Shown one piece after another: positions 2,710-48,195 of a DNA stretch of 48,195 bases (its first letter is position 1; every line of letters starts with the position of its first letter). The stretch comes from Phycisphaerales bacterium Planc_01. GTDB taxonomy: Bacteria; Planctomycetota; Phycisphaerae; Sedimentisphaerales; Anaerobacaceae. The translations under genes and the position numbers were made by a program. The stretch is taken from the NCBI GenBank assembly GCA_001603075.1, contig LVBB01000134.1:43646-91840 (forward strand), in the 5' to 3' direction. The notes beneath the pieces were generated by a model. That model was not told the origin of the DNA, made no database searches, and saw nothing but the letters and a program-made list of their open reading frames with translations.

Positions 2710-2758
2710 AAATACGTAGTTTCCGAACTTGACGCGGCATTGCCCGTCGGGCTATAGT
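2710..2758 (+). promoter_or_regulatory. Promoter with upstream TACGTAGTTTCC box (copy 1)
   Basis: The box AAATACGTAGTTTCC occupies 2710-2724. A -35 TTGACG lies at 2729-2734 and a -10 TATAGT at 2753-2758 (spacer 18). Transcription should start near 2765 and run into the non-coding unit that ends at the terminator at 3045-3076. The box starts 19 bases before the -35, as in the two other copies in the window. The box resembles FixJ/NarL-type response-regulator sites, which is an inference from memory. Confidence 0.75.
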
Positions 2759-2764
2759 TCCACC

Positions 2765-3076
2765 GGTTCGAAGCGCCGACGGTTCATCGCTTCCATTGTC
2801 ATGCGATGACGTGAGGCCCTGGCGGAGGAAAGGGCCAGGCGGGTTCGGTCTGCAACGACGCCTGTCTTGGAGGCGGCTGTGCAGACCGTTGCCGCGAACC
2901 GAGGCCGGGCTGACCACCGAGACGCTTTGTGTTGTCTTGGGTTATGCGATGCGTGGCGGTTCTGTCGTTCGCCGACGGGGTCTGCCATGTCGCAGGGTTG
3001 GATTTGCAGGAAGTGGAGGCTCTTAGAGCCGTTTCATCTTGTGGGGTTGCGGGATCGTCTTCCCGCAACCTTTTTC
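2765..3076 (+). ncRNA. Candidate structured small RNA (about 310 nt)
   Basis: The unit is bounded by a promoter at 2729-2758 and a perfect intrinsic terminator at 3045-3076. It has no convincing reading frame with a ribosome site, but it is rich in pairing. CATCGC (2785-2790) pairs with GCGATG (2803-2808). GGCCCT (2815-2820) pairs with AGGGCC (2831-2836) around a purine loop GGCGGAGGAA. A nested long hairpin pairs GGTTC (2842-2846) with GAACC (2896-2900) and GGTCTGC (2847-2853) with GCAGACC (2881-2887), with an inner GCCT/AGGC stem. GGCTC/GAGCC lies at about 3018-3030. It does not match RNase P, SRP, 6S or tmRNA landmarks that I know. The start is predicted and the function unknown. Exposed GGA motifs would suit a CsrA- or Shine-Dalgarno-interacting RNA, but this is weak. 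Confidence 0.6.
3045..3076 (+). terminator. Intrinsic terminator of the first small RNA
   Basis: A perfect 10-bp stem, GGTTGCGGGA (3045-3054) with TCCCGCAACC (3061-3070), carries a 6-base loop and is followed by TTTTT, the classic rho-independent form on the plus strand. Confidence 0.9.
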
Positions 3077-3148
3077 TATCGCACCGTCATCCACAGACGC
3101 TTGTTCCTGCTCCCATTGCAGGCATGGCTCTCGGCAGAAATGAGATAG

Positions 3149-3196
3149 AAATACGTAGTTCCCACAATTGACAGCACAATTTGGGCCCTTGAGAAT
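3149..3196 (+). promoter_or_regulatory. Promoter with upstream TACGTAGTTCCC box (copy 2)
   Basis: The box AAATACGTAGTTCCC occupies 3149-3163. The -35 TTGACA is at 3168-3173, again 19 bases from the box start, and the likely -10 is GAGAAT at 3191-3196 (spacer 17). Transcription would begin near 3203 and end at the hairpin and T-run at 3274-3328. Confidence 0.7.
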
Positions 3197-3202
3197 AGGC
3201 CC

Positions 3203-3328
3203 TCAATCTGCGGGTGCAAACCGACTCTTTGTGAGCAGTTTTCAATGGACTGAACTCGAGGCACCTCGCAGTGGGGAGACAAGGGTGATGAAGAGAAGTG
3301 CTTTACCATCCTTCCGTCTCCCTTTTTC
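3203..3328 (+). ncRNA. Candidate second small RNA (about 125 nt)
   Basis: This short unit lies between the box-carrying promoter at 3149-3196 and a terminator-like hairpin ending at 3322 with five T. It starts 73 bases after the first RNA's terminator and shares its promoter architecture but has no obvious sequence similarity to it. A possible 27-codon frame begins at ATG 3288, but it lacks a good ribosome site and runs through the terminator stem, so I treat the unit as non-coding. Function unknown. Confidence 0.45.
3274..3328 (+). terminator. Terminator-like hairpin of the second small RNA
   Basis: GGGAGAC (3274-3280) pairs with GTCTCCC (3316-3322) and is followed by TTTTTC. The 35-base internal part is only partly paired (AAGG with CCTT), so this is a long-looped terminator. 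No matching A-run lies on the left, so it serves only the plus strand. Confidence 0.6.
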
Positions 3329-47083: not shown

Positions 47084-47131
47084 AAATACGTAGTTTCCAC
47101 AATAGACGGGTCACTTCCATCGTAATACACT
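47084..47131 (+). promoter_or_regulatory. Promoter with upstream TACGTAGTTTCC box (copy 3)
   Basis: The box AAATACGTAGTTTCC (47084-47098) is identical to copy 1. A -35 TAGACG (47103-47108) starts 19 bases from the box start and a -10 TACACT (47126-47131) follows with spacer 17. It precedes the proline/tryptophan-rich gene at 47208. Confidence 0.75.
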
Positions 47132-47207: not shown

Positions 47208-47606
47208 ATGGACTCGAAGAGACCGACACGGAGGCGAAGCGTGCTGGCCAGGTTGATGACGGGTGGGGCGGTGCTGCTGCTGTTTGTCCTGCTGGTGAGC
47301 CCCGGTGACGCCGCTCCGGGCGTCGGCGTGGTCAGTCCGACCACGACGATCGCCGTTCAGCAGGCCCTGGCGACGAACGCGGTTGCCATGGGCTGGGGGG
47401 GCTGTAGCTGGGTTCACATCCCGGATTGGATGCTGCCGCGCAGCCCGTGCCAGCCACCGTGGGTCCCGGCGCCGCCGATCTGGATCCCGCAGCCACCGAT
47501 CTGGATCCCGCAACCGCCAATCTGGATCCCGCAGCCGCCGGTCTGGACGCCGGGGCCGCCGGTCTGGGTCCCCAGGCCGCCGGTCTGGTTTGGCCCTCGG
47601 TGGTGA
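47208..47606 (+). CDS. Small exported Pro/Trp-rich repeat protein
   Basis: This 132-residue protein has a basic N-terminus and signal peptide (RRSVLARLMTGGAVLLLFVL, then LVSPGDAAPG) and a C-terminal run of six to seven copies of a six-residue unit, PPIWIPQ-like (PPWVPA, PPIWIPQ three times, PPVWTPG, PPVWVPR, PPVWFGP). The repeat is built from near-identical 18-bp DNA units. AAAGGAAA precedes the ATG. I do not recognise a family; the run of Pro and Trp suggests an extended rod that contacts polysaccharide or protein partners. The gene lies under a TACGTAG-box promoter and 200 bases before the export lipoprotein gene. Confidence 0.8.
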   Translation: MDSKRPTRRRSVLARLMTGGAVLLLFVLLVSPGDAAPGVGVVSPTTTIAVQQALATNAVAMGWGGCSWVHIPDWMLPRSPCQPPWVPAPPIWIPQPPIWIPQPPIWIPQPPVWTPGPPVWVPRPPVWFGPRW

Positions 47607-47806: not shown

Positions 47807-48195
47807 GTGAACCTCGCGAATGGTGCTTTGCGCCGGCGATTGCTGTGCGCCTGGCACGGGGGCCCGGGGACTGTCCTGGCGGTGGTCCTGGTCCTTTCGT
47901 TGTCGGGTTGCAGCGATCAGGTTCGGATGCCACAGCCGGAAGAATTGGAGGCCTTCGAGCGGGCCCGCGCGGCCGTGACGACGGTGGACATGGACCGGAT
48001 CGAGAAGGCCAAGCTCAAGACCGGTCCCTATCGAGTCGTTCCCGGCGACGTGCTGGAATTCACGATGCCTGCGCTGCTCCAGGCGGTCACCGCCAGGGAG
48101 GTGCAGGCGGCGCAGGCGCGAAGCCAGGGGGACTACCCCAATCCTGTTCGGCCCGAGAATTGCTGTGTCTTGATGGAGCAGGATTCGAGGCGTAG
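47807..48195 (+). CDS. Polysaccharide-export lipoprotein (Wza-like), 3' end outside window
   Basis: The GTG start at 47807 has AAGGGGAG seven bases upstream. The frame reads a basic N-terminus, a hydrophobic core (TVLAVVLVLSLSGC, with lipobox LSGC), then a linker and the Poly_export opening GPYRVVPGDVLEFTMP, the conserved YxIxPGDxL-type motif of Wza/GfcE outer-membrane polysaccharide exporters. The frame is open at the window end (two bases of the next codon). Its role would be exopolysaccharide or capsule export across the outer membrane. Confidence 0.75.
   Translation, partial: MNLANGALRRRLLCAWHGGPGTVLAVVLVLSLSGCSDQVRMPQPEELEAFERARAAVTTVDMDRIEKAKLKTGPYRVVPGDVLEFTMPALLQAVTAREVQAAQARSQGDYPNPVRPENCCVLMEQDSRR

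Follow-up and report, generated by a model that had tools for sequence, protein, structure and literature searches.

A putative FixJ-type operator precedes small RNAs and exopolysaccharide-export genes in a Sedimentisphaerales planctomycete

The stretch of DNA analyzed here (the window; 48,195 nt) belongs to a 5.65-Mb draft genome that is 97% complete (the host). A 15-base box, AAATACGTAGTTTCC, occurs in the window three times, exactly at 2710 and 47084 and with one mismatch at 3149 (Table 1). Shuffled versions of the window contain a mean of 0.13 copies, and none of 100 reached three. At all three boxes, a -35 hexamer begins 19 bases after the box start and is followed by a -10 hexamer, with spacers of 18, 17, and 17 bases, respectively. 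A preliminary description had reported both these positions and this geometry, and we find both borne out, the former beyond chance expectation. Its statement that no other intergenic copy exists holds within the window, where no further site was found at ≤3 mismatches, but not for the whole genome. By aligning the flanks of 15-mer matches, we find that the box forms the left-hand portion of a longer, 24-base element, AAATACGTAGTYNCCACAATTGAC, which extends into the -35. The -35 of promoter 3 (TAGACG) and the -10 of promoter 2 (GAGAAT) are weak, and such poor hexamers would suit activator-dependent promoters.

Table 1. Positions of the predicted regulatory and transcribed features within the window.
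Feature	Position	Strand	Remarks
Box 1, putative operator of unit 1	2710..2733	+	24-base form, 3 mismatches
Promoter 1	2729..2758	+	-35 TTGACG 2729-2734, -10 TATAGT 2753-2758; read on sequence; geometry as in the 98 sites
Unit 1, non-coding RNA, predicted start	2765..3077	+	Terminator 3045-3075; no called gene; fold z -4.5; 83% identical in G001
Box 2, putative operator of unit 2	3149..3172	+	24-base form, no mismatch
Promoter 2	3168..3196	+	-35 TTGACA 3168-3173, -10 GAGAAT 3191-3196 (weak); read on sequence
Unit 2, structured small RNA, without Rfam match	3203..3328	+	Terminator 3273-3327; fold z -3.8; covariation; R1 match
Box 3	47084..47107	+	24-base form, 1 mismatch
Promoter 3	47103..47131	+	-35 TAGACG 47103-47108 (weak), -10 TACACT 47126-47131; read on sequence
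Pro/Trp-repeat ORF, signal-peptide-like start	47208..47606	+	Start codon chosen by eye; no Pfam/NCBIfam match
Exopolysaccharide-export gene, 5' part, cut by contig end	47807..48195	+	56% identity over 98 aa to Poly_export/SLBB protein of the C5 operon; no Pfam match for the fragment alone

The first two boxes precede non-coding units, as had been proposed: neither contains a gene called by our simple caller, both have terminators, and both fold better than shuffled sequences. The third box, again as described earlier, stands before a Pro/Trp-repeat ORF, which is followed by an export gene recognized by its similarity to a Poly_export/SLBB protein encoded elsewhere in the host. An alkaline phosphatase gene (PF00245; 3368-4540) lies convergent with unit 2, and by eye the C-terminus of its product resembles a sorting or anchor signal. 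The last 59 bases of the window (48137-48195), at the contig end and inside the export gene, recur reversed at the start of host contig C125 (L375:3-61), and this repeat is perhaps a mobile element or an assembly joint.

The element is not confined to the window. In the host, the 15-mer has 26 matches at ≤2 mismatches (two palindromic places being counted twice), against 2 for the reversed pattern, and the 24-base form has 16 matches at ≤3 mismatches, against none. We estimate that the host carries about 20 sites. Among 61 genomes surveyed, host included, 18 carry 24-base matches, while the reversed pattern has 2 in all 61. All six genomes of the host's genus are positive, with 14-40 matches each. 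Among 31 other family members, 6 have 6-24 matches, 6 have one or two, and 19 have none. The element was found in none of 24 genomes from other families. With some 20 sites estimated in the host and up to 40 matches in a genome of its genus, the regulon is thus not the small one that the preliminary description suggested.

The promoter geometry is also general. Across 98 unique sites from the collected loci (≤5 mismatches), a TATAAT-like -10 hexamer stands at +41 to +43 from the box start in 75, compared with 2-9 of 98 in seven control windows. An eighth control window, which reached 78 of 98, was set aside since it fell on the box. A genome-wide scan with the offset had been suggested earlier. 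We find that the offset and the -10 recur across genomes, and the boxes therefore do not lie at random positions unrelated to -35 elements. Only 1 of 84 unique sites (≤4 mismatches) falls inside a called gene. For 57 of these 84, a same-strand ORF comes first within 900 bp; for 27, it does not. By a crude rule of our own, a signal-peptide-like start is seen in 21 of these 57 ORFs, compared with 75 of 388 other genes.

Such an element might instead be a spreading DNA repeat or the extended promoter of another sigma factor, given that its 24 bases include the -35 and that three host copies (L002, L008, and L011) share longer flanks. We consider this highly improbable. Over the 98 sites, element columns are 76-100% conserved, two free positions excepted (values partly inflated, since sites were picked by motif), whereas conservation outside the element is at background except for one A just 5' (81%). 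Furthermore, the TATAAT-like -10 persists at sigma-70 spacing.

The box is repeatedly found beside one kind of regulator gene. FixJ-like regulator genes adjoin it in several genera, and the box occurs in 13 of 30 loci encoding homologs of the host regulator L093 at ≤6 mismatches, compared with 0 for the reversed motif and a mean of 0.6 (maximum 8) for 200 permuted motifs. We also scanned named genomes for regulator loci and divided the resulting 80 along the similarity ranking into 49 near and 31 more distant loci, a split of our own making. The box or its diverged form lies within 600 bp (≤6 mismatches) in 19 of 49 near loci versus 0 of 31 distant loci; the 49-locus and 30-locus sets overlap and contain near-duplicates, and these counts are not independent. 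At ≤7 mismatches, 21 near and 4 distant loci are positive, and the reversed motif has 6 matches over all 80. The near loci are mostly titled Planctomycetota, Phycisphaerae, or Sedimentisphaerales, with two titled only “uncultured bacterium,” and the distant loci come from Legionella, alphaproteobacteria, and other organisms in addition to eight planctomycete records. Sixteen of the 19 loci have the box ~84-148 bp downstream of the regulator, whose strand is shared by 22 of 23 matches. The single box of genome G018 and a box of G014 both adjoin a FixJ-like regulator gene, in two loci that are near-identical. In sister genera, the box takes a diverged form, AATCCCGTAGTTNCCACGATTG (also written AATCCCGTAGTT), which is present in 9 of 15 chosen genomes with 1-8 matches each and no reversed match.

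The proteins encoded at these loci have the architecture of a two-component system. Both regulators that we scanned combine PF00072 (REC) with PF00196 (GerE), and the phospho-acceptor D57 is invariant in 15 aligned regulators. Two kinases scanned, both with N-termini cut by locus edges, carry PAS, HisKA, and HATPase domains. Searches for solved relatives, made with proteins of the host's relatives, returned FixJ (5xso, 2.4e-31) as best match for the G018 regulator, with 1yio a close second (1.9e-30), and fusions holding FixL's kinase part as best matches for the G021 kinase. The site itself also resembles FixJ sites. Excerpts of PMC4999443 give the FixJ selection consensi GTAGTTTCCC and GTAMGTAG, and excerpts of PMC13327599 name the fixK promoter site GTACGTAG. 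The window boxes, whose copies contain ATACGTAG and GTAGTTTCC/GTAGTTCCC, match 8-9 of 10 positions of the former consensus and 7 of 8 of the latter.

It is quite unlikely, in our assessment, that some other regulator binds the box and that its FixJ-like neighborhood reflects coincidence or co-regulation. The host does have 18 GerE-domain matches, and LuxR-type proteins with only a helix-turn-helix (L100, L133, and L162) also occur in box loci. However, this reading is opposed by the neighborhood counts (13/30 and 19/49, with 0/31 among distant loci), by the way in which box and regulator have diverged together from genus to genus, and by how closely the site matches the consensi of FixJ itself. 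The box is probably the operator of a FixJ-type two-component regulator acting on sigma-70 promoters, even though no box was found at ≤6 mismatches in 30 of the 49 near loci. The earlier suggestion of a FixJ/NarL-type site abutting the -35 is supported by the adjoining regulator genes and by FixJ as the best solved relative. The regulator probably acts as an activator, we infer.

Within the host, two FixJ-like candidates have an intact receiver with its Asp: L093 (C6:66626), which lies behind a kinase, and L104 (C109:105398), which is ~2.5 kb from the nearest box. Regulators L094 and L102 have Asn at the phospho-acceptor position, and L095 as called is without its N-terminal part. The only FixJ-like regulator that abuts a box in the host is the receiver-degenerate L102, the called end of which overlaps the box start. 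Neighborhood had pointed to L093 as the host's binder, a candidacy that the tree does not bear out: L093 falls in a 17-row clade (support 98/82) without any box-adjacent member. Box-adjacent regulators are spread over other branches, where one of them, L232, groups with L104. LuxR-type proteins with GerE and no receiver (L133, L162, L100, and L096) are found before or after boxes in G004 and G028; the host relative, L100, is at a contig edge.

Unit 2 is a conserved, multicopy RNA. Seven of its base pairs, including four of the outer helix, show changes in both partners, a number that 7 of 500 shuffles reach. A covariance model built from 11 unit-2 copies, box not included (R1), matches the window at 3206-3328 with 132 bits, this copy being part of the training set. 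R1 has matches in 45 of 89 family genomes and 24 of 45 genera. Beyond the genus, the seven best alignments retain the outer helix via changed pairs, together with the terminator. Rfam at the gathering threshold recovered only tRNAs in the window, and under relaxed settings four loci of the unit-2 family yielded only two matches, both at chance level. We rejected a conserved small ORF in unit 2 (AUGAAGAGA...), as its reading frame is soon interrupted by a stop codon in the member G004_C465 and differs in length among copies.

Within the genus, every one of the 14 R1 matches is preceded by a box, which begins 53-58 nt upstream and has ≤2 mismatches in 13 cases and 6 in the other; most of the unit-2 copies had first been found with a query that contained the box. 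Of four R1 matches in G029, two are preceded by the box at 54 nt and the remaining two are at contig ends. Among 23 R1 loci in other genera, 22 have no genus-type box at ≤6 mismatches and the one in G021 has no box at that place. By eye, no diverged box was seen in 22 stretches upstream of other-genus unit-2 RNAs, and 20 diverged-box loci contain no R1 match. The unit-2 RNA thus predates its link to the box, given that R1 loci of other genera have no genus-type box there.

Unit 1 is fast-evolving. In the host, G001, G002, G004, and G005, unit 2 is preceded at a distance of 316-439 bp by a box-led unit, and in G029 a box-led unit ending in a terminator comes after unit 2. A second structured RNA motif, R2, consists of a GCYGGG hairpin and then a CACGG/CCGUG hairpin. 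Of the 89 family genomes, 36 carry it; for the window's genus, the count is 0 of 6. Copies are frequently arranged in tandem, such as the five that G094 has in ~1.3 kb. R2 loci include L185, L189, L192, L197, L201, L203, and L209, where the motif comes after a regulator-adjacent box, and L341, L342, L343, and L345. No Rfam match was obtained in nine R2 loci searched. Membership of unit 1 in this family was rejected: neither the window nor the unit-1 loci searched match R2, which the six genus genomes do not carry.

Candidate targets in the host include surface and export genes. A box-led operon on contig C5 encodes an exported 340-aa protein, a Pro-rich protein, a Poly_export/SLBB protein, and a Wzz/AAA_31 protein. 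The C5 locus and that at 47084 in the window are best read as two paralogous exopolysaccharide-export operons and putative regulon targets. Other boxes precede a 699-aa AAA_31 ATPase (C109), a family-2 glycosyltransferase (C6, behind two boxes 331 bp apart), an exported subtilase (C22, where the genes beyond resemble polysaccharide genes by eye only), GLUG-repeat proteins (C16), and the host's second unit-2 RNA (C154). For several host first ORFs, no family match was obtained. Small exported proteins encoded behind boxes in the host and G005 (L080:3284-3622 and L373:9251-9574) belong to one unnamed family and are 59% identical, and the host member has no Pfam match. Copies of the C154-type unit-2 RNA (L112, L113, and L117-L120) have an inverted repeat, ~TCATCA-N4-TGATGA, directly upstream of the box, which is possibly the site of a second regulator.

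In some relatives, the box is associated with csrA. It lies before two csrA paralogs in G004 and one in G003. In G029, a unit-2-type RNA (28 bits) stands directly before a csrA paralog at a contig end, and in G006 the R2 motif lies 260 bp before a csrA. CsrA is encoded in 54 of 61 relatives, host included (C75:16879-17034). Host contig C125 starts just inside the G029-type csrA neighborhood, and a host csrA paralog may sit in an assembly gap. These observations, together with an alternative fold of unit 2 (available to 10 of 11 aligned copies, with one doubly changed pair) whose hexaloop presents A[UCA]GGAC, would be consistent with a FixJ-type regulon working as a Gac/Rsm-like switch. Its small RNAs would titrate CsrA, csrA paralogs would be driven as well, and surface synthesis would be coupled to post-transcriptional control. 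We regard this as rather doubtful. GGA counts in units 1 and 2 equal those of shuffles in all five sequences tested, and in the best fold of unit 2 the GGA is paired. In sequence stretches from other genera, the hexaloop is not retained. Gac/Rsm small RNAs bind CsrA through repeated exposed GGA motifs, which were not found here; unit 2 has a single possible GGA hexaloop. Furthermore, no box was found near the only csrA found in the host, the main csrA of G003, or a second G003 copy. A role as CsrA sponge is possible for units 1 and 2, but with GGA counts equal to shuffles we keep it only as a rival reading.

We therefore return to the FixJ-type operator as the best explanation. The response regulator would combine a receiver with a LuxR/GerE helix-turn-helix, and in many relatives its gene follows that of a PAS-domain histidine kinase. 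Relative to the predicted start, its operator spans about -54 to -31 and so overlaps the sigma-70 -35, and the regulator most likely activates these promoters. Its regulon would have expanded in the genus to the present 14-40 matches per genome. Under its control would be units 1 and 2 as small RNAs, operons for exopolysaccharide export, and genes for exported proteins, to which two relatives add csrA paralogs. The DNA itself shows the site with its promoter geometry and conservation, the regulator's repeated neighborhood and kinship, and the RNA family, while binding, activation, a signal, and regulation of other genes by the RNAs are what we infer.

The regulon thus appears real and FixJ-type by site, protein, and neighborhood, with targets that are new. 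In the open-access papers searched, we found no description of such a regulon in Sedimentisphaerales or Phycisphaerae. A broader proposal can be offered only tentatively, as a speculative possibility: that in Sedimentisphaerales-type planctomycetes a FixLJ-type system has been rewired to act globally on surface genes and post-transcriptional control, as a switch convergent with Gac/Rsm. A single operator would fire an undescribed small RNA family, exopolysaccharide export, and CsrA paralogs, with operator and regulator having co-diverged between genera. If the reading as a FixJ-type operator is true, the regulon can be listed in uncultured genomes from sequence alone, and a family-wide RNA without Rfam match becomes linked both to surface genes and to a regulator class that has a name. 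It would also suggest that FixJ-type DNA recognition has been kept across phyla while the targets changed.

The system shares several features with FixL/FixJ of alphaproteobacteria: a REC and LuxR-HTH regulator with a PAS kinase, and a site resembling GTAMGTAG and GTAGTTTCCC, the consensi in the excerpted parts of PMC4999443. FixJ footprints at -69 to -44 and -57 to -31, from the same excerpts, are near the place predicted here. In contrast, the system described here has up to 40 sites and belongs to another phylum, whereas those excerpts of PMC4999443 report four candidate targets in Rhizobiales. The targets also differ, here being small RNAs and surface or export genes. FixLJ systems regulate fixK and nifA, neither of which was recognized among the host targets looked at. 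FixL senses oxygen through a haem-PAS domain; the kinases here have PAS domains.

With GacS/GacA-Rsm (BarA/UvrY-Csr), the system shares a LuxR-HTH response regulator placed to drive small RNAs and, in some relatives, a csrA tied to the regulon. It differs in that there is no excess of GGA motifs and the box abuts the -35. GacS/BarA is a hybrid sensor kinase with receiver and HPt domains; the two kinases here, scanned with N-termini cut by locus edges, match neither. The present regulon may also resemble exopolysaccharide/PEP-CTERM regulons, in which one regulator serves exported proteins as well as genes for export and chain length.
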